A stretch of DNA of 23,090 nt from the IMG/VR virus record IMGVR_UViG_3300010354_000692, positions 1 to 23,090 of that record; one strand, 5' to 3'. The notes beneath the pieces were generated by a model. It worked only from the letters and a program-made list of their open reading frames with translations. It was not told the origin of the DNA and did not search any database. Below are positions 1,133-22,900 of the stretch, piece by piece. This DNA comes from a virus. Both the position numbers and the translations under genes were made by a program. Numbering within the stretch: the stretch's first letter is position 1; each line of letters begins with the position of its first letter.

Positions 1133-1161
1133 ATTATAAACAACGCACTTTATTTTGTCAA
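1133..1161 (-). promoter_or_regulatory. Consensus sigma-70 promoter for gp55
   Basis: On the minus strand there is TTGACA (1161-1156), a 17-base spacer, and TATAAT (1138-1133). Both hexamers are exact bacterial sigma-70 consensus with optimal spacing. The predicted start is near 1126, giving a leader of about 14 bases that still contains the AAGGA ribosome site (1124-1120) of gp55. This fits expression of the late sigma factor by unmodified host RNA polymerase. The match is by inspection; the start site is not measured. Confidence 0.85.
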
Positions 1162-1168
1162 CTAAATA
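1161..1168 (+). promoter_or_regulatory. Candidate phage late promoter for the baseplate operon
   Basis: ACTAAATA (followed by A) resembles the T4 late box TATAAATA at 6 of 8 positions, including the TAAATA core. With T4 geometry, transcription would start near 1174, just before AGGAG (1177-1181) and the ATG at 1188, giving a very short leader with a usable ribosome site. It abuts and shares one base with the -35 element of the opposing gp55 promoter. It is a short AT-rich motif, so chance occurrence is possible; the placement is what supports it. Confidence 0.55.
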
Positions 1169-1187: not shown

Positions 1188-2258
1188 ATGGCAAAATTTG
1201 ATGTTGGTGCGGGGTTAAACACCTTTTCTTCCGGCTCAACTACATTCGGTAGTCAAGGTTTAGGTTCCTTAGGATCTGCGGTAGGTACAGTGGGGAAATT
1301 AGCCGGTGCATTAAACAATTTATCTAATCCGGGTGAACTAATTAGTAAATTAAGAAGCATAAATTTGCCAGCAGGCGGTTCTGCATCAGGACAAACTACC
1401 AGTGCAGGTGCCCAATGGAGCGGTAGAGAAGCTGAAAATGATTGGCGTGTAAGATTAAGTATACCTACTATTGAAACTTTTTCAGGTAGCCCTGTACTAC
1501 AACCTTTGCAAGCTGCCGGCGGAATGATTTTTCCATACACTCCTCAAGTCACTTTAAGCAGCTCTGCCGGATATGAAGAGCAAAATATAACACATCAAAA
1601 TTATAGTTTTATCAATTATACCAATAGTAAACAAGATACCATTACAATCACAGCACCTTTTCATGTAGAAGATGCTGTTCAAGCACAATATTGGTTAGCT
1701 GCTGTGCATTATTTTAGATCATTGACCAAGATGTTTACAGGGGATTTAGGAACTGTGTCTGGAAATCCTCCTGCTATAGTTCTTTTAAACGGTTATGGAG
1801 ATTATGTGTTTAAAAATATTCCTGTTGTAGTTAAGAATTTTAGTGTGGATTTACCACAAGATGTAAATTATATCGCTACTACAGTAGGAAAAAGTTTTGC
1901 ATCATCAGGACTGTCTGCCTCTACAGCATTACCTAAAAGCCAATGGAACGTTGGAAGAACAGCTACAACACTTGCAGGTGTAGCAGGTGCATTAGGAAAT
2001 GCTAAATTAGCACAAATTGCCGGCGGTATTGCTTTAGGAGCAGGAGTATTTGGTGCATATCAAAATGCTAAAAATAGTAACAGTGTAACCACTAATCCTA
2101 TATCGGTAGGTGCTGTTGGCGGTGCGAGCCACGTTCCAGTAAAAAGCTCGTTTACAGTTCAATTATTACCAATTTATAGCAGACAAAGTATGCGTAAATT
2201 TAATCTTGCTGATTTTGTAAATGGAAAGTATGTAAACAACAAAGTAGGATATCTATAA
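1188..2258 (+). CDS. Baseplate tail-tube cap / initiator-like protein (gp48-like)
   Basis: A 356-residue structural protein that heads the rightward baseplate operon. Residues 1-80 are Gly/Ser/Ala-rich and low in complexity. Residues 85-235 form a beta-rich core with MIFPYTPQVTLSSS, QNYSFINYTNSKQDTITITA, the helix YWLAAVHYFRSLTKMF and PPAIVLLNGYGDYVFKNIPV. An Ala/Gly-rich hydrophobic stretch (258-292) follows, and the end SFTVQLLPIYSRQSMRKFNL resembles the tube-domain ending of T4 gp48 (SNLPSTFTLEITMREIITLN in general pattern). T4 gp48 (364 residues) and gp54 are tube-like proteins that cap the hub and nucleate the tail tube; gp54 is therefore an alternative assignment. AGGAG precedes the ATG by six bases. 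The stop overlaps the next start as TAATG. The alanine/glycine stretch could be mistaken for a membrane segment but fits an internal structural linker. Confidence 0.7.
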   Translation: MAKFDVGAGLNTFSSGSTTFGSQGLGSLGSAVGTVGKLAGALNNLSNPGELISKLRSINLPAGGSASGQTTSAGAQWSGREAENDWRVRLSIPTIETFSGSPVLQPLQAAGGMIFPYTPQVTLSSSAGYEEQNITHQNYSFINYTNSKQDTITITAPFHVEDAVQAQYWLAAVHYFRSLTKMFTGDLGTVSGNPPAIVLLNGYGDYVFKNIPVVVKNFSVDLPQDVNYIATTVGKSFASSGLSASTALPKSQWNVGRTATTLAGVAGALGNAKLAQIAGGIALGAGVFGAYQNAKNSNSVTTNPISVGAVGGASHVPVKSSFTVQLLPIYSRQSMRKFNLADFVNGKYVNNKVGYL

Positions 2259-2557
2259 TGGCAATTTATAAAAAAAATAGTCCTTGGGCAGACACTCCTA
2301 TAGAGAACAATTATTTAGGTGTGTTAAGAATACGTTCTGTTAGTGCTGAAGCAGATGATTTTCTCTATACCATAGAACCGCAGTACACTTTTAGACCAGA
2401 TTTGTTGGCGTTTGATTTGTATCAAGATGCTAAGTTATGGTGGGTGTTTATTCAAAGAAATTTAGATGTATTGCAAGATCCTATCTATGATTTTGTACCA
2501 GGAGTACAAATTTACATACCTAAAGGCCATAGCTTAAAAAAAGTTTTAGGATTATAA
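2258..2557 (+). CDS. 53: Baseplate wedge subunit gp53
   Basis: A 99-residue protein matching the conserved part of the T4 baseplate wedge protein gp53 (196 residues in T4). Residues 48-80, with DLLAFDLYQDAKLWWVFIQR and then DPIYDF, parallel T4's ANAIYGNPQLYWVLLMCNDN followed by DPYYGW. The end, PGVQIYIPKGHSLKKVL (81-97), has the shape of a LysM-like or tail-protein-X ending, with a G-x-x-I-x-I-P motif. In T4, gp53 joins neighbouring wedges when they assemble around the hub. This short form lacks the long C-terminal part of T4 gp53. AGGA lies upstream inside the gp48-like gene, the ATG shares one base with that gene's stop, and the next start is one base after this stop, so it is tightly coupled on both sides. 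Confidence 0.87.
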   Translation: MAIYKKNSPWADTPIENNYLGVLRIRSVSAEADDFLYTIEPQYTFRPDLLAFDLYQDAKLWWVFIQRNLDVLQDPIYDFVPGVQIYIPKGHSLKKVLGL

Positions 2558-2558
2558 T

Positions 2559-5057
2559 ATGCTGCCAGGAATACAAAATGATAAAATTCAAAGCGGTTAT
2601 GGACAGCCCGAAAGTAAAACAACTGCTACAACTGCTAACGAAATAAAATCTGTAGTACTTTCTGGTAAAAGTGCTGTTTCTGGACTAGTAAATTCAACTG
2701 CTGATTTGGAGAATTTAAAAAAATCTATTATTAGTAACAGCACTAGTATGGGAAAAAATATAACAAATCAGATACCAGGAGTGCAGACCGCAGCAGAAAG
2801 TCTAGCATCAAGTCAAAAAAACCTAAACTTAAAAGATGCGTTTAATTTTCAAACTAAAGTTCAAGCTGATTTAACTCCACCATTACCTAATATTTTAAGT
2901 TATTATTCTAGTTACAACTATATTTTTACACTTAGTGTTTTAACACAGCAGTCGATTAATTTTCCAGATGTTACATATAAAAAAGGTATATATGGTCCTT
3001 TGATTTTAAGATCTGCCGGCGGAGCACCTGATAGTGAATTAGTAGGTACATTATATGGAAAATATGATTTTTATATTGATGATGTTAATATAGATAGCGT
3101 TATTGGTTTAGACAAGGCAACAGGAAATACTAATGCTACAGGATTCAGATTTAGAATCATAGAACCTTATAGCATGGGGCTTTTCTTTCAAAGTTTACAA
3201 GCTGCTGCCTTGGCATCAGGTTACATGAATTATCTCGATTGTCCTTTATTACTTACAATAGAATTTAAAGGACATGTGTTTGATAACGAAACACAATTAA
3301 TTAGTACACAAATTGATAATTCTCAAAGACACTTTCCACTAAAATTAAGCGATTTAAACATGAAGGTTACTGGAAAAGGCACAACGTATGATGTTGAAGC
3401 GTTTCCTTGGAACGAACAATCATTTAGCACAGAATTTAATCAAATTAAATCAGATATTCAATTTTATTGTGACGATAAAGGTCCATTTACAGTACAGAAT
3501 ATGTTACAGACCGGAGAACAAAGTTTACAGTATGTATTAAATGATTATTTAAAAAAACGTGTAAAAAAAGGCGAAAAACCTAATCAGATATTAATTTTAT
3601 TTCCAAAAGATTCCACGTCAAATCCATCAGGAGGAAATGGTCAACCAAATGAAAATCAAGATCGTAGTGCTTCTATAAATCCTAATGCAGGCAGTAGTGG
3701 CTCGGTTCTAAAAAAATTAGGAGTTGCAGCCGGAACAGGAAAAAATACTACACTTGTACAAGCTACTGGAGATAGTTCTGTAAACAAAATAGGACAATCA
3801 TTAATGGGGTTTAACGCATATTTTAAAGGAGATTCTCCATATCCTAAAGACAATGCTGTTTATGATGAAACCACAGGAATATATATTCGAGGTGATATAA
3901 CAATTAATCTATCTAATAGTAGCTTTAAATTTAAACAAGGCACTAGTGTTGTAGATATTATTAATAGAACAATACAGTTAAGTGATTATGCTCGCAATGC
4001 ATTAGATCCTGCTCAAAGATCAGAAAATGGAAAAGTTATTTGGTTTAAGGTAGAAACACAGACGTTTCTTTTAGATTCAGACGAAAATGATACAACAGGA
4101 GTTAAACCTAAACTAATAGTTTTTAAAGTAGTTCCTTTTGAAGTAGACATAAGTTATATCTTGCCTACTAATTCTCAAAGGCCACAATTAGATAATTTAA
4201 AAAAACAAGCCTTAAAACAGTATGATTATATCTATACCGGAAAAAATACAGAAGTTTTAGATTTTAATATAGATTTTAATGCAGGGTTTTATAGAGCTTT
4301 AAATGCTGATTATGGAAGCAATAATGAGGGATATATTGTTCAAGCACCCTCTGGAGCCGCAGCTGATTTAAGCGAAATTGATAGACTTAAAAGAAATGCT
4401 ATATCTGGAACAATAGGATCTAGTCCACTAACACAAGCGACTCCACAAAAGCAAATTAATACTAAAACAAAAACTCGAACTTATAACATAGGCGGTGGCG
4501 GACCAGACGATGCAATAGCAGTAGCAGCAGGTCAATTTCAAGAATTAGTTACAGCTGGTGTAGATATGATTAATCTAGATTTAACAATACTAGGGGATCC
4601 TTACTTTTTAGCAGACAGCGGCATGGGAAATTATTCAGCTAAAGGTGTAGGAAATTTTAAATGCATAAATGCAGATGGATCAGCGAACTATCAAGAAACA
4701 GAAATCGTTGTACAAGTAAATTTTAGAACTCCTATAGATGTTAACTTAGATACAGGGTTTTATAATTTTGGAGATACAAAACCAGTTACACAATTTAGCG
4801 GGTTATACAATATAATTGAAGTTAGTAGTTCTTTTTCAAGAGGAATGTTTAAACAGGTATTAAAAATGTTAAGGATACCAGGACAAGATAACTCTGCCGC
4901 AGAATCTAGTCCGCAAACCAATATAGTGTTAAACACTTCACCAAATAACGCTTCAAGTAGTTATTATGGGCAAGTTACAGGAAAAAATAATGTTAATAGT
5001 AATCCGCCTAATCCAGGATTACCAGGTGTAATTAATACGGGAGGGTTTACATCTTAA
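2559..5057 (+). CDS. Baseplate hub-type structural protein (832 residues; gp27-like role suspected)
   Basis: A large virion protein directly upstream of the gp5 spike. Residues 1-105 are Ser/Thr/Asn-rich. Residues 108-350 hold the first recognisable block (ILSYYSSYNYIFTLSVL, GPLILRSAGG, FRFRIIEPYSMGLFFQSLQA, LLLTIEFKGH). Residues 355-410 are a Gly/Asn/Ser linker. Residues 455-580 include VVDIINRTIQLSDYARNALD. Residues 668-775 contain INLDLTILGDPYFLADSG and end with FSGLYNIIEVSSSFSRGMFK then QVLKMLRI. That ending (x-GxYxVxxVxxxFxxGxFxQxLxxxR) is typical of phage hub proteins of the gp27/gpD class. Marine T4-like phages carry proteins of this size next to gp5, sometimes labelled VrlC-like; this is my recollection and is not checked. 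T4 gp27 has only about 390 residues, so this would be an expanded hub protein. The stop overlaps the gp5 start (TAATG). Confidence 0.6.
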   Translation: MLPGIQNDKIQSGYGQPESKTTATTANEIKSVVLSGKSAVSGLVNSTADLENLKKSIISNSTSMGKNITNQIPGVQTAAESLASSQKNLNLKDAFNFQTKVQADLTPPLPNILSYYSSYNYIFTLSVLTQQSINFPDVTYKKGIYGPLILRSAGGAPDSELVGTLYGKYDFYIDDVNIDSVIGLDKATGNTNATGFRFRIIEPYSMGLFFQSLQAAALASGYMNYLDCPLLLTIEFKGHVFDNETQLISTQIDNSQRHFPLKLSDLNMKVTGKGTTYDVEAFPWNEQSFSTEFNQIKSDIQFYCDDKGPFTVQNMLQTGEQSLQYVLNDYLKKRVKKGEKPNQILILFPKDSTSNPSGGNGQPNENQDRSASINPNAGSSGSVLKKLGVAAGTGKNTTLVQATGDSSVNKIGQSLMGFNAYFKGDSPYPKDNAVYDETTGIYIRGDITINLSNSSFKFKQGTSVVDIINRTIQLSDYARNALDPAQRSENGKVIWFKVETQTFLLDSDENDTTGVKPKLIVFKVVPFEVDISYILPTNSQRPQLDNLKKQALKQYDYIYTGKNTEVLDFNIDFNAGFYRALNADYGSNNEGYIVQAPSGAAADLSEIDRLKRNAISGTIGSSPLTQATPQKQINTKTKTRTYNIGGGGPDDAIAVAAGQFQELVTAGVDMINLDLTILGDPYFLADSGMGNYSAKGVGNFKCINADGSANYQETEIVVQVNFRTPIDVNLDTGFYNFGDTKPVTQFSGLYNIIEVSSSFSRGMFKQVLKMLRIPGQDNSAAESSPQTNIVLNTSPNNASSSYYGQVTGKNNVNSNPPNPGLPGVINTGGFTS

Positions 5058-7027
5058 TGAGTAACAATGATTATAGAGAACCGATAGGGCAACCGAGTCA
5101 ATATGAAGGTCCAGTTTGGGCTAAGGTAGTTAGTAATGTAGATCCGACTTATATGGGAGGATTAGAGGTACAGATATTGAGGGAAGTTGGCAACGACGAT
5201 GATGTTTCCGGACAAGTTATACCTGTAAAATATTTAAGTCCTTTTTTTGGATCTACTGCTAGAAAATTTGTTACAGAAATTGAAGATTATAACAACACAC
5301 AAAAAAGTTTTGGTATGTGGATGGTCCCCCCAGAAGTTAATAGTATTGTAGTTTGTATTTTTATTAATGGAGATTATAGAAAAGGATATTGGATAGGATG
5401 TGTATTAGAAGAAAATATGAATTTTGCTGTCCCAGGACATGCCGCTACAAAATATAATGTAGATGGAAGGGAAGAAAGAGTTCCTGTAGCCGAGTATAAT
5501 AAAGTAGTAAGAGGCTCTACTCAGGATCCAACAAAAATTCTAAAAGTTGAAAGTCCTTTTTCTAAAACATTAGATGATCAGGGATTATTAAGAGATGATG
5601 TGCGTGGAATCACGACTAGCAGTGCAAGAAGAGAAACTCCAAGCACAGTGTTTGGAATAAGCACACCAGGACCAGTTGATAAAAGATCGGGAGCTAAAAG
5701 AGGAAAAATAGGAAAACTAGAACATCAAATACCTAATGCTTTTGTTAGCAGATTAGGAGGTAGTTCGTTTGTAATGGACGACGGCGATGATAAGTTTTTA
5801 AGAAAAAAAAGTCCATCAAAAGGTCCGCCCGAATATGCTAAAGTTGAATTGAAAGAAACAGATGGTGATGTAACAAGACCCCATAACGAATTAGTAAGAA
5901 TTAGAACAAGAACAGGACATCAAATTTTATTACACAATTCTGAAGATTTAATCTACATAGGAAATGCAAGAGGAACTGCATGGATAGAATTAACTAGTGA
6001 TGGAAAAATAGATATATTTGCTGATGATAGTATTAATATTAGAACAAAACAAGATTTAAATTTATATTGTGATAGAGATTTTAATTTAGAAGTAGGAAGA
6101 AATTTTAATACAAAAGTAAAAGGCGAAATGCATACTAATGTATTACAAGATCAAATTAACGTTGTAGAAGGAGATCAAAAAATTGAAATCAAGAATCGAG
6201 TTGATGAAACTATAGGTGAACAGTATAGATTACATGTAAAAGATCATGCTAAATTTGTTTTCAGTGACGATTACACTTTAGGAATTTTAGGTAGATTAGA
6301 TTTAAAAGTAACTAAAGGAACTAGTGTAAATTTAGGTATAGGACAAAGTGTTCAATATGCTCCTTACGACAAACTAAGTCATGAACTTGATTTAGAACAA
6401 AAAGATGTAGAAGGACCTAACGATGATAAAGTATACATTAAAATTCATCAAGATGCTAAAATTCAATATGTAAACAGCAATTTAGATATCACTGTAGATA
6501 AAGATCAAAAATTAAAAGTTAAAGGTAATCAAGATGTTAATGTTACTGGATATGTTTATACAACATCCGGCGGCTCTAATGAAACTAAGGCAGGCGGAAA
6601 TATTATCGAAGTAGCACCAAATATTCATATGAACGGTCCTCCAGCCGCTACAGCAGCTACAGCAACAACTCCTTTAGATGCAAGGGTAAGTGCCAAGGCT
6701 GTGCCTTTAAGAGTGCTTGTTCAACATGCATTACCAGATATTGAAGTGGAGGATGACAATAATAACAATGGATCGAACAATTCAGATACACGAATAGTAA
6801 GAAATATTACCACCTTAAACACTATTTTAAAAAGAGTTCCAACTCCAGAACCTTATCCGCATCATGAAAATTTTGATCCAGAAAGTTATAAACCAGAAAT
6901 GACAGATAGAGATTCTGGAGGAAGATACATTTCTATAGGGACAGAACCTACTGAAACATATACTACCCCGAGCAATTTTAATGAATACACTATCTCAGTA
7001 GATACTTTTGAAAAAATTAAGGGGTAA
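5057..7027 (+). CDS. 5: Baseplate central spike gp5, without a visible lysozyme domain
   Basis: This is the membrane-puncturing spike at the centre of the baseplate. Residues 17-120 are the gp5/VgrG OB-fold (GPVWAKVVSNVDPTYMGGLE, FGMWMVPPEVNSIVVCIF, GDYRKGYWIG). Residues 280-325 carry the gp5/VgrG neck (RIRTRTGHQILLHNSEDLIY, then GTAWIELTSDGKIDIFADDS). Residues 325-530 show alternating beta repeats such as DLNLYCDRDFNLEVGRNFNT and QKLKVKGNQDVNVTG, as in the triple-stranded beta-helix. Residues 545-656 form an extra tail with ILKRVPTPEPYPHHENFDPE, which I associate with marine T4-like gp5 proteins. In T4 a lysozyme domain of about 170 residues lies between OB-fold and beta-helix; here residues 125-275 are charged and linker-like with no lysozyme-type catalytic signature. 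GGAGG lies upstream; the gene is coupled to the hub gene by TAATG. Confidence 0.92.
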   Translation: MSNNDYREPIGQPSQYEGPVWAKVVSNVDPTYMGGLEVQILREVGNDDDVSGQVIPVKYLSPFFGSTARKFVTEIEDYNNTQKSFGMWMVPPEVNSIVVCIFINGDYRKGYWIGCVLEENMNFAVPGHAATKYNVDGREERVPVAEYNKVVRGSTQDPTKILKVESPFSKTLDDQGLLRDDVRGITTSSARRETPSTVFGISTPGPVDKRSGAKRGKIGKLEHQIPNAFVSRLGGSSFVMDDGDDKFLRKKSPSKGPPEYAKVELKETDGDVTRPHNELVRIRTRTGHQILLHNSEDLIYIGNARGTAWIELTSDGKIDIFADDSINIRTKQDLNLYCDRDFNLEVGRNFNTKVKGEMHTNVLQDQINVVEGDQKIEIKNRVDETIGEQYRLHVKDHAKFVFSDDYTLGILGRLDLKVTKGTSVNLGIGQSVQYAPYDKLSHELDLEQKDVEGPNDDKVYIKIHQDAKIQYVNSNLDITVDKDQKLKVKGNQDVNVTGYVYTTSGGSNETKAGGNIIEVAPNIHMNGPPAATAATATTPLDARVSAKAVPLRVLVQHALPDIEVEDDNNNNGSNNSDTRIVRNITTLNTILKRVPTPEPYPHHENFDPESYKPEMTDRDSGGRYISIGTEPTETYTTPSNFNEYTISVDTFEKIKG

Positions 7028-7030
7028 TAT

Positions 7031-7468
7031 ATGTATAATAATAGGTTATATGATAATATTGTTTTAAAAGGTTCTAATAATCTACAAAGCATTCCAGGAT
7101 CTAAAACTTATAAAGGATTCAGTAGTGTAAGTTCAGAAGCAAATAGTTTTGCATTGTACGATCTAGCTTTAATTAAACAAGATATTTTGAATCATTTCAA
7201 TACACGACAAGGAGAAAGGTTAGAACAACCTGAATTTGGTACTATTATTTGGGATGTGCTATTCGAGCCTTTAACAACAGAGCTAAAAGATCTTATTAGG
7301 AAAAATGTAGAAACTATTGTTAATTATGATCCTAGAGTAATAGCCGACGAAGTTATAGTAACTAGTTACGAAAGCGGAATCCAAATCGAATGTGTGCTTA
7401 TATTTTTACCATACAATATTAGAGAATCTATACAATTACAATTTGATCAAGAAAATGGATTAATATAG
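7031..7468 (+). CDS. 25: Baseplate wedge subunit gp25
   Basis: A 145-residue member of the GPW/gp25 family (T4 gp25 has 132). gp25 is the most conserved wedge protein in contractile tails; with gp53 and gp6 it forms the inner wedge core and starts sheath assembly. The family signature is clear: IKQDILNHFNTRQGERLEQP then EFGTIIWDVLFEPL (about 48-82), including the conserved GER and the PEFG turn, followed by the helix LKDLIRKNVETIVNYDPRV and a terminal beta-strand region. The N-terminal 35 residues are variable. AAGGGG ends ten bases before the ATG and the gp5 stop is three bases upstream. It ends TAG at 7466-7468, followed by the only gap longer than a few bases inside the rightward unit. Confidence 0.95.
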   Translation: MYNNRLYDNIVLKGSNNLQSIPGSKTYKGFSSVSSEANSFALYDLALIKQDILNHFNTRQGERLEQPEFGTIIWDVLFEPLTTELKDLIRKNVETIVNYDPRVIADEVIVTSYESGIQIECVLIFLPYNIRESIQLQFDQENGLI

Positions 7469-7491
7469 ATATATACGCACTTTTCAAATAC

Positions 7492-7510
7492 GGTAAATAT
7501 TATATAAATG
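7492..7510 (+). promoter_or_regulatory. Two late-promoter-like boxes between gp25 and gp6
   Basis: The 52-base gap 7469-7520 contains GGTAAATA (7492-7499) and TATAAATG (7503-7510), matching the T4 late box TATAAATA at 6 and 7 of 8 positions. Using T4 geometry, the first would start RNA near 7505, leaving about 15 bases with a weak GGGA (7510-7513) before the gp6 ATG at 7521. The second would leave only about five bases, too short for a normal ribosome site. I see no hairpin-plus-T-run terminator in the gap. AT-rich sequence makes such matches easy, so this is tentative. Confidence 0.4.
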
Positions 7511-10500: not shown

Positions 10501-10976
10501 TAAAATCAATAAGTGATGAAATAATTTATCATCCGGTAAAATATAAAGTTTTATTCGGAGAAAAAGCTACGACTAATGTACAAGCTTTATTTAAAGTAGT
10601 CAAAAATACAGATATCGTAATAAGTGATAATGATGTCAAAGCAGGCGTACTTAGTGCTATTAATGAGTTTTTTGCTTTAGAAAATTGGGATTTTGGAGAT
10701 AATTTTTATTTTTCAGAATTAGCAACTTATGTAATGACACAATTAAGTCCTTATATTGTGAATTTTATTTTAGTGCCTAAACAATCAGATTTAAATTTTG
10801 GTGCATTATATGAAATAAGATCAGAAAAAGATCAAATTTTTATTAATGGTGCAGGTATTAATGATATTGAAATAATTAACACAATAACAGCTAGTAAATT
10901 AAAAGCTAGCGGAGCAATTTATGCTAGTCAAACAGTTACAGGACAGCAATCTATAACGAGTTCGGAGATTAATTAA
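7521..10976 (+). CDS. 6: Baseplate wedge protein gp6, enlarged (1151 residues)
   Basis: gp6 forms the ring that links the wedges and is central to sheath contraction. The N-terminus has the family pattern YDFENLRRVM, IESSEYLALIDVIAFLGQSI and SRENFLELAERRESVLRLSR with LLGYNAKR (31-110), parallel to T4's YDFEGSRLNVLCDLLAYNT and RTANLRSSVVQAAQDNGY. Residues 342-366 (LTFSDGTFGNLPLGTFRAYY) match the gp6/baseplate-J core, and 418-437 (TNAPATYYTQNRMITAEDYN) match T4's RETQQRCVTATDYD region. The C-terminal block holds DNDVKAGVLSAINEFFALEN and WDFGDNFYFSELATYVMTQL. T4 gp6 has 660 residues; most of the extra length is a Ser/Thr/Asp-rich beta-type insertion at about 530-940. The ribosome site is weak (GGGA). 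Its TAA shares one base with the next ATG. Confidence 0.9.
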   Translation: MPAIDRQNRLLAAEDWKRIYQSFKNADFQSYDFENLRRVMINYIRENYPEDFNDYIESSEYLALIDVIAFLGQSISFRTDLNSRENFLELAERRESVLRLSRLLGYNAKRNINASGLLRFSTVSTTENVFDSNGRNLSGQIIGWNDPTNLNWFDQFIKVINAALPASRQFGNPDDKDVINNIPTEQYRFQSANTDVPIYSFTKSIDGRNMVFEIVSSTFKNSLDVYEEPPSLGNRIAFIYRNDGKGNASANTGFFIYFKQGILNQGTFDITQPSTNEIVDIDATNINDSDVWLYRLDQNGLESEYWQKVPSLEGNNIIYNSLSKSVRNIYSVTTKAGDRVSLTFSDGTFGNLPLGTFRAYYRVSNGLSYTINPKDIRNVNIDIPYISSSNQLETISISLSLQSSIDNSSETETNDSIKTNAPATYYTQNRMITAEDYNISPLSVNQEVIKVKSVNRSSSGISRYFDLIDPTGKYSKTNLFADDGVIYNQEYTDSFRFSYQTRTDIEAVIYNQISELLKTVPLRDFYYSKFFKIITDSLDVSWFSRSSETNQSTGYIADTSTGVIYKLAEYTSNSLRYFTVGTLARFISGPGRYFDLADNNKIKIGSAGAANTATSLWTKVVSIAGDGSANNTGILVDGSGPVILNDIIPQGAILSTLIPTLRSTIEASTISTMIDLIFSNKPFGLRYDIENRSWKIVFESNLNTVDNFSLGKQGDVSNQKLDSSWLILFTTDTEFYTVKSRLTRYIFESDSQVRFYYDASDKVYDTRTNSTVKDKIKILSINTQPNSTLPFTYDKDWEITEEFKGLDGYVDTKKIQITFSDTDDDSVVDNPVLFDEIVDAANTTLQNKFIIQQKYEFAEGQEDYKYVSNSDQKVLILASESNIGSLVNYADGQYFYFDDTKTVKKLDKSTSTLNATLDYKLFTGRDKLKFQYTHNADYESRIDPGITNIIDIYVLTRNYDQIFRQWLNGSINEEPLPLSSDNLYILMNPKLSQIKSISDEIIYHPVKYKVLFGEKATTNVQALFKVVKNTDIVISDNDVKAGVLSAINEFFALENWDFGDNFYFSELATYVMTQLSPYIVNFILVPKQSDLNFGALYEIRSEKDQIFINGAGINDIEIINTITASKLKASGAIYASQTVTGQQSITSSEIN

Positions 10977-13900
10977 TGGCAGATCAAGAAGAACCTAATC
11001 TACCAATTGGTATTAATGAAGAAAGAAAAAGTGTTAATTTATTACCAAAATATTATAGGACTAATACTAATTCTAAGTTCTTAGATGCAACAGTAGATAA
11101 TCTGACACAACCTGGCACAGTTAAAAAACTAAATGGATTCATAGGAAGACAAAACGGTAAAGCTGTAAAAGCTTCTGATATTTTTGTTTCTGCGTCAGAT
11201 ACTTCACGACAAAATTATCAATTAGAACCTGCTGCTGTTATTAAAGATGAATTTGAAAATATTACATTTTTTAAAGACTACTTAGATTACATTAATCAAA
11301 TTAAGATTTTCGGCGGCAACGTAGATAATCATGAAAGATTAAATGAACAAGAATTCTATAGTTGGAATCCACAAATAAATTGGGATAAATTTGTTAATTT
11401 TCAAAACTATTATTGGTTACCTTACGGGCCCGATCCAATAAGTGTAGTAGGACAACAGCAGGAAATTATAAGCACATACACTGTAAATTTAGTCAATGAC
11501 GGAGATAATTTAGCATATGTAATGTCTCCTGATGGACTTACTAGAAACCCTACTATTACCTTATTTAGAGGACAAACATATAGATTTGAGATCAATAGTC
11601 CTGATAATCCTTTTAGTTTTAAAACTGCAAGAACAACAGATAATTTAAATCGATATTCAACAGGTATTTCTTCGAATTCAGTTTCTGTAGGAACTATCAC
11701 CTTTACAGTAAGTGTTAATGCTCCTGATGTAATTTTTTATTGTAGCGAAGCAGATGCAAATGCAGGAGGCGCAATACACATTTTAGACATAGAAGAAAAT
11801 ACATTTTTAAATGTAGAAACAGATATCATAGGAAAAAAATCATATTCTATTCCAACTAATAACATTAGCTTATCTAATGGAATGAAATTAAAGTTTGAAG
11901 GTAACGTAACTCCAGAAATTTACAGTGATGGTTATTGGTATGTCGAAGGTGTTGGTTCAGCAATTAGATTAATATCAGATCAAGATTTAGATATAATTTC
12001 ATCTTATAGCGAAGAAAAAGAATTATTATTTGATGATACAGCTTTTGATAAAGATCCTTTTAGCACAGCGAGTGCCTTTCCAATTAATAAAGATTATATA
12101 ACAATCAATCGTGCTAGCCCTGACAGGAATCCTTGGTCTAGATATAACAGATGGTTCCATCAAGATGTTATTATAGCATCCGCACAAAGTAGAAATCAAT
12201 TAGCAGAATTTGATCAATCGGCAAGAGCTAATAGATGTATAATAGAATTCGATGCAGGTTTAAAATTATTTAATTTTGGACACAAGGCTAAGAAAAATGT
12301 TAGTTTAATAGACACATTTACTACAGATATATTCTCTACAATTGAAGGATCATTAGGCTATAATGTAGATGGAATAGATTTAGTAGATGGTATGCGTGTT
12401 TTATTCATAGCAGATACAGATAGATTAGTTAAAAATAAAATTTTTAAAGTAAATTTTATAGAAGTAATTGTTCCATCTCGTCAAATAGAATTTGATGCTT
12501 CAATAGTTGATAAAGATAATAATATTTTAAATTTCAATAATGAACATGGTCTAACGTCAGGGCAGCAAGTATTTTATTTGAACAACGGAAATGCTAATAT
12601 TTCTGGATTACTTAATAGGAAATTATATTATGTTTCTGTTATTTCTGCAACAAAAATAAAATTATTTACAGATAAATTATTAACTTTTGAGGTTGATATA
12701 TTTGATATAGGTTCTGGACAACATAAAGTCGAGTTATTTCAAGGAAAACGTAGACAAATAAATCTTACAGAAGAGCCTGACATTGATCCTATCTTAAACG
12801 AGACTGTTTTAATAGAACAAGGATTACAAAATCAAGGACAAATGTATTATTATGATGGTGAAACTTGGAAATTAGGTCAAGTAAAGTCTACAGTTAATCA
12901 GCCTCCATTATTTGATATCTTTGATTCTGAAGGTAATAGTTTTGGTGATCTGTTGGTGTACGACAGTTCTACATTTAGCGGAACTAAATTATTTTCTTAT
13001 AAAATAGGAACAGGAAATGTTGATTCAGTTCTTGGGTTTGCTTTAAGTTATAAAAATATCAATAATATTGGGGATATTGTTTTTGACTTCAATATACTTA
13101 GTGATAGTTTTACCTATAAATCTTTGGCAGTAGTTAAAAGCTTAAAAATAGATATTGGTTTTTTAAAAGTAATTTCGGATCTTGATAACTTTAATTATAC
13201 TAACGGCTGGACGAAATGTCAAGTAGCTAATGTTCAACCTATAGTAAGAATTTTTAAAAATTCTAATTTAGTAAATGATTTTCCAGTTGATGTTTATGAT
13301 AATACCGATGATCTAAACGATTTGGATGTTAAAGTTCTTGTTAACGGAATAAGATTAAAAAAAGAAGATTATACTATACAAGATGGAGTTGTTAGAAAAT
13401 TTGTAAGGTTGAACACGGATGTAGGACTTGATGATGTCGTCACTCTAAGATGTTTTGCATCTCAAAATAAAAATGATAAAGGATATTATGAAATCCCAGT
13501 TAACTTACAAAATAACCCATTAAACAATGCTTTAGAGTCTTTTACTTTAGGTGAAGTGATCGATCATGTAGGAAGTATAGCAGATAACAATAATGAGTTC
13601 GTCGGCGAATTTCCAGGAAAAGGTAATTTAAGAGATTTATCAAATGTAAGTGGATATGGAACTAAATTTTTACAACATAGCGGACCTTTAAATTTATCTT
13701 TATATCATCTAACACAAAAAAGTTTTAATTTAATAAAGGCCTTAGAAAAATCAAGTTTAGATTACGGTAAGTTTAAAAGAGCTTTTTTAAGTGCAGCTTC
13801 TACAAGTGACATAACCACAGATACTAGACAGCATGTTGATTACATATTAGAAAAAATAACTAAAGATCAACCAAAATCTTTACCGTATTATTTGTCTGAT

Positions 13901-16900
13901 ATGTTTGCTTTTGTAGGATCAAACAGATATGAATTTGTAGTAAGAGATTCTAGAATTAAAATTTATCCTTTAACAACAAATTTTAATTTAGATAATCTTA
14001 GTAATAGAGCTGTTTATGTCTATCTAAATGATCAACATTTAATATATGAAAAGGACTATGAATTTGGAACAGAACCTTTTATAAACTTACTAATTGATTT
14101 AGCAGAAAATGACAAAGTACAAATATATGAATATGAAAGCACAGACGGAACTTTTTGCCCGCCAACACCATCTAAATTAGGGATTTACCCCAAGTATGAA
14201 CCTAAGAAATATATAGATAACACCTATCTTACTCCAACCGAAGTTATACAAGGACACGATGGAAGTATCACTATAGCCTTCGGAGATTATAGAGATGATA
14301 TGTTGTTAGAATTAGAAAAACGAATTTTTAACAACATTAAGATAAAATACGATTCTGATATTTTTAACATTTATGATTTTATTCCAGGGTATGAAAGAAG
14401 TATTTCATATTCTAAAGTAGAAGTAGACAATGTTATTGCATCACTGTTTTTCCAGTGGACTTCTAATATAAATCAAGACTATACAAAACAGCTTGAGTGG
14501 GATTCTGAGAATTCTTTTACTTTTAACTACAGAGATAATTATGCTCCTGACGGAACTGATGTTCCTGCATTTTGGAGAGGTATTTATAAGTGGTTTTTAG
14601 ATACAGATAGACCACATACTCATCCGTGGGAGTGCTTAGGTTTTACACTACAACCTAAGTGGTGGAATGAAGTTTACGGTCCAGCACCTTATACTAAAGA
14701 TAATTTAATTTTATGGGATGATTTACGTCAAGGTATTATTAGAGAGCCAGGAAAACCAATAACTATTAACACTCAGTTTGTAAGAAGTATTTTAACTGAA
14801 AGATGTCCTGTTGATGAAGAAGGAAATTTAATTTCACCTTTATCTTCTAATTTTGTTAGCGGTTATATAAAACCAACAGCAGAAGGTTATTATACATTCG
14901 GAGATCAGGGACCAGTTGAAACTGCTTGGCGACGTAGTAGCTATTATGCTTTTGCTCTAATTCAAACAGCACTATTATTAAAACCAAACAAAGTTTTAGC
15001 CACATGTTTAGACAGAAGTAGAGTTAATCGCAATCTCACCAACCAACTAGTTTATAGTCATACTAATCTTAGAATTAAATTAAAAGATATAATAATGCCA
15101 TCTACTGTAAAAAGTTCGGCTAGAATTTTTACTTCTGGATTAATTAATTACATTGTAGATTATGTTAATTCAGATATAACAAGTTTATTAGAAAATTATG
15201 TTTATGATTTACAAAATTTAAAAAATAATTTATCAAGTAAATTAGGAGGATTTACTACACAAAATAAATTTAAACTTTTATTAGACAGTAAATCTCCTAC
15301 TAGTGTAGGGGGTGTGTTTGTACCAACTGATAATTATAAAATTGCATTAAACACATCTAGTCCAATTAAAAAAATTACATACAGCGGCATAATTATTACA
15401 AAATTTGCGGACGGATTCGAGATAAGAGGTTACATTCAAACTCAACCGTACTTTGTTTATTTTCCTTATAGATTAACTGATAAGGTCATTCGAGTAGGAA
15501 GTATTTCAGAAAGCTTTGTATTATGGCAAACAGGAAAAAATTACATAGCCGGAAAAATTGTAAATTACAATGGCGAATACTATAGAGTTAAAACTAGTCA
15601 CGAAACTGATGAAAATTTTAATCCTGAGTTGTATGCTAAGTTATCAGGACTTCCCCAAACAGGCGGAAGAGAAGCAGTTTTAAGGAAAAATTGGGACACA
15701 AAAAATCCTCAAAAACTTACATACGGTACAAAATTTAGAACTATTCAAGAAGTAGTAGATTTTATTCAAGGTTATGGTGCTTATTTAGAATCAGAAGGAA
15801 TAATCTTAGAAGAATATAACGCCAATCTTAAAACAGTAATAAATTGGGAAACCAGTATTAAAGAATTTTTATTTTGGACAACACAAAATTGGGCTGAAGG
15901 ATCGGCAATAAGTTTAAGTCCAGCAGCAGATCTATTAACTCTTAAATTAGACAGATGTGTTGTTAATGATGTTAAAGATCCTTTTTACGGTTATAATATT
16001 TTTAAAGTAGATGGTTCCATATTAGATGATAGTTTTACTAATGTTTCTAGGAATGAAAGTAATTTTAATTTAAGACCGATTAACACAAATCAAGGAATAT
16101 ACGGAGCAGTTCTATATCTTGTTCAAAAAGAACATATATTGATTTTAGATAATACTACTTTGTTTAATGATGTTATATACGATGTAGAACCAGGTTACAG
16201 ACAGGAAAGAATTAAAGTTATAGGATACATTAGCTCAGCATGGAACGGAGGATTTAATGTTCCAGGATTCATTTTTGATAATGCAACTATTTCTAATTAC
16301 GAACCATACGTAGATTATAATTTAGGTGACATTGTAAAATATAAAGAATTTTATTATAGTGCTAAGTCTCGTATTACAGGATCGAGCGAATTCGTTTCTA
16401 AAGAATGGGTAAGACTAGATGAAAAACCAGTGGCAAAATTAATTCCTAATTGGGATTATAGAGCAGAACAATTTACAGATTTTTATGATTTAGATACAGA
16501 TAATTTTGATTCCGAACAACAAAGATTAGCACAACATTTAATTGGCTATCAAAATAGACAATATCTTGAAAATATTATTAAAGATGATGTTAGTCAGTAT
16601 AAATTTTATCAGGGAATGATAACAGAAAAGGGAACGCAAAATGTTCTTAGTAAGTTATTCGATGTTCTAAGTGCTGATGAGCAAGACAGTTTAACTTTTA
16701 ACGAGGAATGGGCTGTACGTGTAGGTGAGTATGGTGCCATAGATTCTTTTAATGAAATTGAATTAAAATTAGACGAGAAAGAATTTAAATTAAGTCCGCA
16801 GCCTGTAGAATTAGTTCAAATTAAAGATCCTTCAATAGTAGACTTCGTCTATAGACAAACACCATCAGATATCTATATTAAACCGGTAGGATATAATAAT

Positions 16901-19900
16901 AATCCATTTCCGACAAGTAACCAAGAAAAATATTTAAGATCCCCAGGATATGTAAGATATGAAGATGTTAAAATATATGCTGACAATTTACAAACAGCAA
17001 CACTTAATGGAGTCTCTTCATTTAACGAGGGAGATTATGTTTGGTGCGCTTTTGAAAATAAAGAATGGAATGTATACAGATTCACAAAAAATACATTCAT
17101 TCCTACTTTCATAGAATATGAGAATAATATATTAACCATAACTTGTGATAAAATTCCAGATATTAATATAGGCGATTTTATAGCTATAAAACAAACGTCA
17201 TCGTTAGATAATTTTTATACAATTAAAAATATTATAGGTAGAAAAATAATAATTGAAGCTGTTATCTCAGGATGGATTAATCCTTTTACTGAGTACAATA
17301 CTATTTTAACTTTTAAGTTTATTTCTAGTAGAATTGATAATATAGATAAAGCTAATGAACATCTGCCATCTAATATTAAAGAAAATGAACTATTATGGGT
17401 AGATAATAATGGGCTAGGACTTTTTACTACATATAAAAATAATAAAATCTTTGACAGAGAAGAATTTGATAACACAGGGGCTAGTCTAAATTATAAATTT
17501 GGCAATAAGGTTAGTATTACTAAAAATGGAAATATTGCAGCAGTTACAACTAATGATAATGTCTTAATTTTCAATAGATCAGGTAGAGGTTATTCTTGGC
17601 AGCAAATACAAACAATAACACCTAACACCGATATTGCTAGTGCTATCGAATTAAATTTTGGTGTGGAAACCGCCTTTAGCCCAGATGGAGAGTGGTTAGC
17701 CATCTCGGCCCCTACTGCAAGTTTTGTAAAGTCAAGGTGGGTAGGAGAATTTAACAGATTAAGCAGTTATTCACTCTCTGATATAGTTCAGGTCAAAAAT
17801 GTTCATTTTAGTGCAAAACAAGGATATACGTTTGTCAACGATGGTTCTTCTCTCTATGATGTTAATAAATTTAATCAAGATTGGGTTCCGGCATATTTAA
17901 TACCAACAGATATAAGCAAACCTGCAAGTGGATTGAATAGACAAGGATATGTTAACATTTACAAGAAGCAGTCGGGTAATAATAGATACATTTTTAATAG
18001 TAGTTTTGTAAGTCCTAATCCAACAGATAATGAAAAGTTTGGCAGTAAATTAGAATTTGCAAAGCAGGGAGAAGAATATGTTTTAGCCGTAAGTAGTTTA
18101 GGTTATAACAATAATCAAGGTAGAGTATATCTATTTAGATATGGAACGACAGAAACTGATAGTACTGTTAGTTTATGGCAAATGGATTATGACAGAAATT
18201 ATGTAGGACTTTATAATCCTTTAAATCAGTATTATGCCGGAGATATTGTATTTAGAGCACACTTATCTGTAACCGCAGGTTCTTTTGTAGTTGGAAAATC
18301 ATACATAATTGAAACTTTAGGCACTACTAACTTTACTCTCATAGGAGCCTCATCTAATACTATGGGCGATTTATTTGTTGCAACTGGTGTAGGAACTGGA
18401 ACAGGCACTGCTTATGAACCTGATTTGTATGATGAATTTTTATTTTATAGATGTTTAGCAGATCAAGATCCAGCACCAATGGAGACTAATTCCAGTGCAT
18501 GGGAAGTGATCGAAGATCCTAACGTATTAGGCTTTTTCCCTCAACAAATCCAAGATAATACAATTACTGATGCAAACCTTGATGTTTATCCGTCTACTAA
18601 TCAAAACGTAGAATCAGTGTTACAAGGAGATTTGTTTGGTTATGATGTGAGAATGTCTGAAGATGGATTAAAATTAATTATTTCAGCTCCTGCCGCAGAT
18701 CATGCTAACCATACAAATTATAAAGGAAGATTTAGAACTAATCAAAGATACGATGTAAATGATGTTGTTTACCATAACGGTTTTTATTATGCATATAAAA
18801 GATCGTTCGATAGTTCTCTTCCTAGTGCATTTGTTTCGGCCGATTGGAGATTGCTAGATTACGATATTTTTGATCCTAACAATGTGTACAATATTGGTGA
18901 TATTGTTTATTATAATAATTTTTTATGGAAGGCAAAAACAAAAATATATGGTGATGGTAGCACAATTAACTTAACTACACAAGACTGGGAAGTTCAGCCA
19001 AATCCTATTGATCCAAATACAGGAAAAGTTTTTGTATATGAGTATAACGGAGAATCATTTGTATTAGTAGATACGTTAGGATCTCAAAATCTAAAAATAA
19101 ACACTAAAGAACGATTTGGAGAATCTATAGCGATTTCTGCTACAGGTAATTACCTAGCAGTTAGTTCTATACTAACAGATGAAGCACAGTTAGATCAAGG
19201 CAGAGTTCTTGTTTTTGAATCAAGTACAAGTACTTTTTCTAAGATTCAAGATCTTTATAGCATTCAAAAAGAGCCAAGAGAAAAGTTTGGTATGTTTATA
19301 GATTTTATGAATGACGATCAAACCTTGGTTGTTTTTAGTGTTAACGGAGATGTATCTAATGAAACTATTTTTGATTCAAGAGAAACATATTTTGATAGTA
19401 AGACTCTAAAAATAGTGGATGTGCTTAAAGATACAGGTAGGATTGATATTTTTGATAGATATTATTCTACATTTATCTATGGAGAATCTTTAACTTCATC
19501 TGCAACTAATGATGTAAATGATAGTTATGGAAGAACTATTGCTGTAGGAAATAATACAGTGCTAGTAGGTGCACCAACAGATGATGATTATGAAGTAGAT
19601 GCAGGTAAAGTTTACAGTTATACAAAACCAAATAGATTGTGTTGGGAAGTAAAAGATGTTGAAAAACACATTGCCAGCGCCAATAAAATTAAAAAAGCTT
19701 TTTTATACAATAAAGTTAACAACAATATTGTAGCCTATTTAGATGTAATTGATCCTTTACAAGGTAAGATAGCCGGGATAGCCGATCAAGAATTAAGATA
19801 TAAAACATATTTTGATCCTGCTTTTTATTCAGTAGGCAATCAAACTGTAAATGTAGATACCGGATTAAATTGGACTTCATCACATAAGGGTATGTTATGG

Positions 19901-22900
19901 TGGGATTTAACAAGAGCTAAATTTTTAGAATTTTCGGGCGGTGATGTAATTTATAGAAGTACTACTTGGAATAAGTTATATGAATCAGCTAGCATAGATA
20001 TTTACGAATGGGTAGAAACAAAATATCTGCCTAGCGAGTGGGATTCTTTATCAGGAACGGAAGAAGGATTCGCTCAAAATATTACAGGAACTTCTAAATA
20101 CGGCAACAGTGTTTATAGTGTTAAACAAAAGTATGATTCTGCAAGTCAAAGTTTTACAAACACTTATTATTACTGGGTAAAGAATACTTCGATTATTCCT
20201 AATGTACAAGGAAGAAGTTTAAGTGCAATAGATGTTTCCAAATTAATTGCTGATCCTGTAGCATATGGATATCCTTGTTTAGCGTTTTTAGGTACAGATA
20301 GTTTTAATCTTGTCAACATTCAAAATTATTTAGAAAATAATGACATAGTCCTTTCGATACAATATTGGTTGGTAGATAATCAAACTCAAAATTATCACAG
20401 TCAATGGAAAATTATAAGCGAAAATGCAGGGACTTCTATTCCTTCTTTTATAGAAGCTAAATGGATCAATAGTCTTGTAGGTAAAGACGAAAAAAATAGA
20501 CTATTACCTAATTTAAAATTGCCAGGGAAAATACGTTATGGAATTGAAGACAGACCTAGGCAAAGTATGTTTATTAATAGAATAGAAGCAGTAAAAGAAA
20601 TTATAGAAAGAGTAAATCAAGTTTTAATTAAAGAATTAATTGTAGACGAATTTGATCTTACCGATTTAACTTTATCAGAACAATCGCCATCTATAATAAC
20701 AGGTAAATGGGATAAAGTAATAGATTTTGAAACCGAACTAAGATTTATAGGTATAGCTTTCTTAGAACAAGCAGTGCTTTCTCCAGTAATTGTAGATGGC
20801 AAAATAATTGATGCAGAAATTATAAATCCAGGGTACGGTTATATAAATGCACCGTATATAGATGTAAAAGGACGAGGAATAAATGCCAACTTAAAAACTG
20901 TTTTAGACGCAAATGGCAGAGTAATTGATGTAGAAATAATTGAAACAGGCGAAGGATATACTTCAGATACTACCTTTTTTGTTAGACCCTACAGAGTTTT
21001 AGTAACCAGTGACAGTTCTATTCAAGACAAATGGGCAATTTATTCTTGGAACAAACAAGACAAGATATGGGAACGAGTGCGCAATCAATCATATAATGTT
21101 AATAATTATTGGAATTATGTTGATTGGTATTTGGAGGGATACGATCAATATACTAAAATTGATAATGTAGTAGAGAATACTTATCAACTAGCATTTTTAC
21201 AAGACAATATAGGCTCTACAGTAAAAGTACAAAATGTAGGAACCGGAGGTTGGATATTATTAGAAAAATTCAATGATTCTATCACTATAGATTATACTCA
21301 AAATTATAAACTGATTGCAAGACAAAACGGAACTATACAGTTTAGTAAAACTTTGTATACTTTTAAAAATACAAATTTAGGATATGATGGTTCGTTACAC
21401 GACTCTAACATTTACGATTTAAGTGCATTAGAAGAATTGAGAATAATTCTTAACACTATTAAAAATAATATTTTAGTAGATAATTTACGACCTGAATATA
21501 TTAAATTATTTTTTGCATCTCTTCGATACGTGCTAAAAGAACAAATATATGTAGATTGGGCTTTTAAAACAAGTTTTGTAAAGGCAACACATCATGCCGG
21601 AGAATTAAAACAAAAAGTTAATTACAATAATGATAGCTTAGAAGATTTTGAAAATTATGTAAAGGAAGTTAAACCTTATAGAACAAAAGTAAGAGAATAT
21701 GTAAGTGCATATAATAAAGTCGACAATGCCAATCATGCAGTTACAGATTTTGATTTGATACCAGTTATAGATTCTAGTACAAAAATTTCGCCTGTTGATG
21801 TTAGATTAGATGATAATGGTGAGATTTTTAGTACCTATTCTGATATAGAAACTTATCCTTGGAAATTTTGGTATGATAATATTGGTTACAAAATTACTGA
21901 CTTAATTATTGTAGATGGAGGATCCGGGTATATTAGATCTCCATTAGTAAAAATAATTGGCGGTTTCGGAGTTGATGCAGAAGCTAAAGCTTATATAAGT
22001 AATGGTAAAGTTACACGTATAGAACTCATTAATAAAGGAAAAGGATATTTAAAAGCACCTACAGTTATAATAGATGGCGGTCTTAATGTAGGCGGTGTTC
22101 AAGCAAAAGTTGTTGCAGTTATTAATGAAGGGCTTGTGAGGTCTAATAAAATATCAATTAAATTTGATAGAATTACTAGATCATATTATGTTACAGAACT
22201 TGAGGCTTCGGCTCAGTTTACAGGAACAGGTAACAGATTACAATGGCCCTTACAATTCAGTCCTAGAAATATTAAAACAATAAAGAACGGAAATGTTTTG
22301 CCAAAAGTTACAATTAATAATGTAGATGTTTTAAGAAACAATTTTAAACTTTCTACAAAAACATCTACAAATAAGGGATATACAAGCTATTCTGGATTAA
22401 TTACATTTTTAGAAGCACCACCAGCTGGTTCTACAATATCTGTTACTTACGAAAAAGATTTTAATCATTTATCAGCTGCTGATAGAATAAACTTTTACTA
22501 TAATCCTGTAAAAGGTCAGTTAGGCAAAGATTTATCACAGTTAATGACAGGTATTGATTTTGGTGGTGTAAATATATCAGGGTTAGGGTTTGACGTTAGT
22601 AAGGGTTGGGATACTTTACCGTGGGTTGATGAAACATGGGACGGATTTGATGCAACGTTTAATGATGAAATAGTAAGGCTTAACGCAGATAGTTCACAGC
22701 AATATGAACATGAACTAGAATATATTCCTACAGTAGGTACTGAGATTAATGTTTATCTTAATGGACGTAGAATAGATGATCCATATTTTAATCTTTATGA
22801 TGGAATTACAGTACAACCAAATGGAAAACTAGTTGCCCCACAAGGTACGTACATGCAGACTTGGGTCGGTGATGGGGAAAATAACATTATTGTTCTGCCT

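Follow-up and report, generated by a model that had tools for sequence, protein, structure and literature searches.

The 36-bp block at positions 1133-1168 of the window, a complete 23,090-base IMG/VR virus record, is on sequence grounds a pair of divergent promoters that are interleaved and not merely touching. Along the DNA the order is late box, sigma-70 -35, late upstream element and sigma-70 -10, with one promoter directed towards gp55, the late-transcription sigma factor, and the other towards a late baseplate operon. An earlier note on this DNA had proposed that a host-type gp55 promoter stands back-to-back with a late promoter of the baseplate operon, and both the layout and the relatives support this. 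The giant-type phages concerned form a large and mostly uncultured group, for which the literature library searched gave no transcript map and no earlier description of the layout.

The intergenic region that holds the block is only ~75 bp long (Table 1). At the other end of the window, a single open frame of at least 4038 aa (10976-23089) follows the gp6-like gene and reaches past the record end. Since a DNA search of a phage collection with the window gave no match, relatives were gathered by protein and pattern searches. Searching IMG/VR with gp55 gave 80 loci at 72-88% identity. The readable set comprises the 79 relatives with enough upstream DNA and the window itself, 80 sequences in all, L042 being left out as too short upstream.

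Table 1. Genes and promoter elements of the window (positions in the window).
Feature	Position	Strand	Remarks
gp55, late-transcription sigma factor, 273 aa	291..1112	-	PHROG 12791 E=7e-77; PHROG 234 E=3e-24
Predicted early transcript start (+1) of gp55	1126	-	inferred from standard promoter spacing from the -10
Sigma-70 -10 TATAAT of gp55 promoter	1133..1138	-	exact TATAAT in 71/75 scored sequences
Late-promoter upstream element, -38 to -22, nearly all within the 17-bp spacer	1136..1152	+	score 19.5 (gp6-only matrix) vs null 99.9th percentile 8.4
Core of upstream element, AACGCAC	1142-1148	+	family consensus TACGCAC
Sigma-70 -35 TTGACA of gp55 promoter	1156..1161	-	TTGAC kept except in L027; sixth base A or T
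Late box CTAAATA, -12 to -6	1162..1168	+	complement TATTTA[GT] keeps its register in every readable relative; tighter by one base in L069
Predicted late transcript start (+1)	1174	+	inferred from T4 late-promoter spacing
Virion structural protein, opens divergent late baseplate operon	1188..2258	+	PHROG 12050 E=5e-46
Baseplate wedge subunit (gp53-like)	2258..2557	+	PHROG 7145 E=3e-25
Virion structural protein	2559..5057	+	PHROG 11190 E=7e-28
Baseplate hub subunit and tail lysozyme	5057..7027	+	PHROG 13211 E=1e-59
Baseplate wedge subunit (gp25-like)	7031..7468	+	PHROG 261 E=1e-19
Second upstream element core TACGCAC, before gp6-like gene	7474..7480	+	score 9.7, p about 0.0006
Late box variant GTAAATA of gp6-like gene, 12 bp past TACGCAC	7493..7499	+	ATAAATA in most relatives
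gp6-like baseplate wedge subunit, 1151 aa	7521..10976	+	PHROG 10646 E=4e-295

The gp55 promoter had been described as an exact match to the sigma-70 consensus, and it is one: TTGACA-17-TATAAT lies at 1133-1161 (-) with zero mismatches, its hexamers separated within the 16-18 bp range of sigma-70 promoters and placed before a gene. About 0.02 such matches at this spacing are expected by chance in the window. The perfect TTGACA is not the rule, the relatives' gp55 -35 being mostly TTGACT. Its sequence suggests that this promoter would be used by host polymerase early in infection. A second perfect TTGACA-17-TATAAT, at 13194-13222 (-), lies antisense within the gp7-like gene; it is not conserved in the five relatives compared, and is therefore probably a chance match.

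On the other side, CTAAATA lies 19 bp ahead of the ATG at 1188, so that a late gene has a NATAAATA-like box close upstream, in a phage that carries a gp55-type sigma. Since CTAAATA is no commoner in the window than chance (9 observed against 11.8 expected from shuffles), the case for the late box rests on comparison. The window frequency would fit a reading in which the CTAAATA at 1162 is accidental and the sigma-70 promoter alone is real. That reading is scarcely credible when set against the relatives: CTAAATA or ATAAATA stands in register across 64 non-redundant sequences with flanks that are near random, and a 372-kb relative has 47 copies of ATAAATA before genes against 4.0 expected, and 10 of [A/G]CTAAATA against 0.66. 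Furthermore, the late box of phage Aeh1 is the same a/gC variant (PMC2988020). From these comparisons, the box is taken to be a real late motif in these phages.

The earlier note had the -35 and the late box sharing a base. For the 7-base CTAAATA this does not hold, as 1156-1161 and 1162-1168 abut; it holds only if the box is taken in its 8-base T4-type form, ACTAAATA, in which case base 1161 is common to both. Whether relatives keep this junction was put forward there as a check, and they do: the composite TATTTA[G/T]TTGAC is exact and in the same register in 78 of the 80 readable sequences. L027 carries one substitution (TTGAT), and L069 lacks one base, so that its late box and -35 truly share a T while both promoters can still be read. 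Many positions of the 36-bp block reach ~2 bits and the bases just outside fall near 0. The register is fixed while the spacing between block and start codon differs by many bases on either side; for gp55 the value is approximate, having been taken to whichever codon aligns with the start in the window. TATTTAKTTGAC is present exactly once in 18 of the 19 long relative records, one of them 372 kb, the nineteenth being L027's record with its one substitution. Register conservation and once-per-genome occurrence rule out the composite as a product of chance.

A pattern scan found the composite in at least 120 IMG/VR stretches. Among the 80 matches listed, gp55 follows directly in 71, and another 5 are cut short within 70 bases; the remaining 4 mark other divergent gene pairs, and there the spacer has no upstream element. 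These four (L140, L149, L195 and L200) belong to other phages, and in each the late box abuts TTGAC[A/T]-17-TATAAT. The abutting design may therefore have arisen more than once.

These loci also bear on the simplest account of the block, that two independent promoters were crowded into a short intergenic space, each selected by itself, with a register set by their separate needs and no regulatory coupling. The shortness of the intergenic region and the four loci, with a late box against a sigma-70 promoter before other genes, are what such packing would lead one to expect; the constant register between flanks of varying length is not. Because the four elements alternate, no insertion could separate two of them without damage to one promoter, and this accounts for the fixed register better than crowding. 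Interleaving would, in addition, make polymerase collision almost unavoidable, so that passive interference at least is expected. We therefore give independent packing little credence.

The 17-bp sigma-70 spacer of the gp55 promoter is conserved among the relatives too, a point absent from the earlier note. A sigma-70 promoter does not require a conserved spacer sequence, and the spacer is conserved here because an upstream element of the late promoter sits within it. Read in the late direction, this element is roughly A-T-W-A-A-C-T-A-C-G-C-A-C-W-T-W-A. Ahead of the gp6-like late box, 57 loci (47 non-redundant) show a matching profile at the same register, and the spacing from core to late box is 12-13 bp at different genes. 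No opposing -35 or -10 was seen at the gp6-like promoters, and likewise no opposing sigma-70 promoter at tail-tube genes. A scoring matrix was built solely from gp6 promoters and then applied to the gp55-side sites, which gave a median score of 16.0; the 99th percentile of the null (2.8) was exceeded by 57/57 sites and its 99.9th percentile (8.4) by 53.

Conservation of the spacer is not a general trait of the group's sigma-70 promoters, as 39 of 43 near-perfect ones in five relatives have no such element. The four that do are the gp55 promoters; the gp55 promoter of the fifth relative (TTGATT) falls outside the near-perfect pattern and is not counted. The element is not a feature of every late promoter either, with no signal across 106 late-box sites. 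When 1054 NTAAATA boxes were scored, the top ones were mainly promoters of the gp55-divergent, gp6, tail-tube and ~204-aa phrog_11259 genes. When IMG/VR was scanned for the element together with the box, blind to gp55, the picture was similar: the 80 loci listed comprise 40 gp6, 23 tail tube and 12 gp55-divergent virion genes, and the other five are three genes truncated at contig ends (two gp6, one virion gene), a probable virion gene and a gene of 845 aa. The element thus chiefly marks tail operons.

Two observations concern the genes so marked. The ~204-aa phrog_11259 protein, which has no assigned function, has an upstream-element late promoter at G006 120433+, G009 128563+ and G004 4921-, and this promoter suggests a tail role for it. 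At the tail tube, 20 of 23 loci (the L270-L342 set) have the ATG only 4-5 bases past the late box, from which a leaderless late mRNA is predicted; further tail-tube sites are G006 34616-, G004 94432+, G012 12641-, G013 3198- and G009 27444-.

The element could instead be the operator of a phage repressor that silences the tail operons and gp55 until a set moment, the late box being merely adjacent. Its place between the -35 and -10 of the gp55 promoter is a classic repressor site, and it occurs on a small set of operons. However, the 12-13 bp spacing to the late box is kept at different genes, which fits an element recognised jointly with polymerase, and operators usually tolerate other positions. 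A repressor is on balance unlikely.

T4 late promoters likewise use a gp55-family sigma, with the box NATAAATA at -13 to -6 (PMC2988020), but they lack both a -35 and an upstream element (PMC2988020, PMC7892883), whereas here a subset, chiefly of tail operons, has one at -38 to -22. The late promoter of the window is accordingly a variant and not a plain T4 late promoter. Since T4 late transcription needs no upstream element and its gp33 reads no DNA sequence (PMC2988020), a reader of the element must be postulated. Candidates are a phage activator or coactivator and gp55 itself through its N-terminal domain; recognition of the element may call for a DNA-binding factor distinct from gp55. The families PF16805 and PF02916 (gp33, gp45) had no match in these phages, and the controls were likewise without a match.

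By sequence, gp55 matches the T4 gp55 chain 7d7c_F (E=2e-5), which is also the top PDB match of its AF2 model (pLDDT 87). The first ~160 residues have no PDB match with Foldseek, and the remainder matches T4 gp55. This N-terminal region of ~160 residues is conserved to PA5oct and RaK2 and has no solved relative. In a variant of our preferred reading, and one compatible with it, the late polymerase itself would read the element, for instance through this extra domain, with no further factor. The length of gp55 (273 aa against 185 in T4) and its unmatched N-terminus would accommodate such a role, and the element lies where sigma region 4 would bind. Against this, most late boxes of the same genomes have no element, so gp55 must work without it, and no recognisable region 4 was found. 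Reading by the polymerase alone is accordingly improbable, to about the same degree as a repressor.

Among known systems, the T4 MotA/AsiA middle promoters carry an element with its centre at about -30 and a distance of 12+-1 bp to the -10 (PMC2988021), a geometry like that of TACGCAC to the late box. There, WWWTGCTTtA precedes a sigma-70 -10, whereas here TACGCAC precedes a late ATAAATA with tail genes downstream. A middle promoter of MotA type was therefore rejected, as the sequences of both element and box differ. In phi29, early and late promoters (A2b/A2c and A3) occupy a common region, where repression of the early side and activation of the late side come about in a single event; activator site 3 overlaps the A2b -35 (PMC3100819). 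The layout described here is compatible with a switch of the phi29 type. The phi29 switch uses p4/p6 with host polymerase, whereas here the late sigma is itself an early product and the elements alternate; no p4/p6 equivalent was identified.

The jumbo phages CBB and GAP32 also have ATAAATA before structural genes and a gp55 homologue, and in CBB ATAAATA has been proposed as a late motif (PMC5259590). In CBB, unlike here, gp55 follows a TGAAACG/TATA promoter and not a consensus sigma-70 promoter, and no upstream element or interleaving was found described in the CBB/GAP32 promoter literature (PMC5259590). Divergence of gp55 from a virion/baseplate operon extends to PA5oct, Phosso, Atu_ph07, 121Q, RaK2, Vibrio phage 2.275 and SCTP-2, with a nucleotidyltransferase-type gene first in the divergent operon of Phosso and Atu_ph07. 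In Atu_ph07, whose gp55 is ~41% identical, the TATTTAGTTGAC junction recurs along with an upstream element scoring 14.5, with no clear TATAAT at the matching position. PA5oct has weak element matches (7.1) before its gp25/gp6 operon and at one other late box. Apart from Atu_ph07, the other jumbo phages have late box and -35 ~2-20 bp apart, or a poor -35, and are not interleaved; phages can thus have this gene order without tight interleaving. A separate locus, L131 765-915 (PA5oct ~65.6 kb), has a gp25/gp53-like baseplate gene divergent from small early-type ORFs, and there the late box faces away from a TTGACG-type promoter.

The preferred reading, then, is that the interleaved divergent promoters form an early/late switch with feedback by gp55. 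The predicted starts lie back to back and 48 bp apart, so the polymerase footprints would have to collide; given standard footprints, two complexes at such starts are not expected to coexist. Mutual exclusion of the early gp55 promoter and the late promoter is therefore likely. Early in infection, host polymerase would fire the perfect sigma-70 promoter and gp55 would be made. Polymerase carrying gp55, together with the reader of the upstream element, would then occupy the late promoter and in doing so cover the -35 and spacer of the gp55 promoter. Activation of the baseplate operon would thus close the early promoter, and gp55 would in effect shut off its own supply, a negative feedback on the late sigma factor tied to one tail operon under its control. 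We favour this switch, its timing included, as the probable function of the layout, with considerable room for doubt. The broader proposal of a two-element gp55-dependent system stands at about even chances: a factor or the extra gp55 domain would read TACGCAC at about -30 of tail late promoters, and the copy in the gp55 spacer would serve as an off-switch, coupling the supply of late sigma to the tail genes.

We take the layout to be a variant both of T4-type late promoters and of phage early/late switches; the comparisons strengthen its anatomy, and its action as a switch is proposed. The textbook example of a promoter with no upstream element is the T4 late promoter; here a widespread group of related phages has such an element on its tail operons, one copy being built into the early promoter of gp55. 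This offers a compact and testable model of how a phage may limit its own late sigma factor and time its tail genes, and the TACGCAC motif provides a handle for finding the missing regulator.
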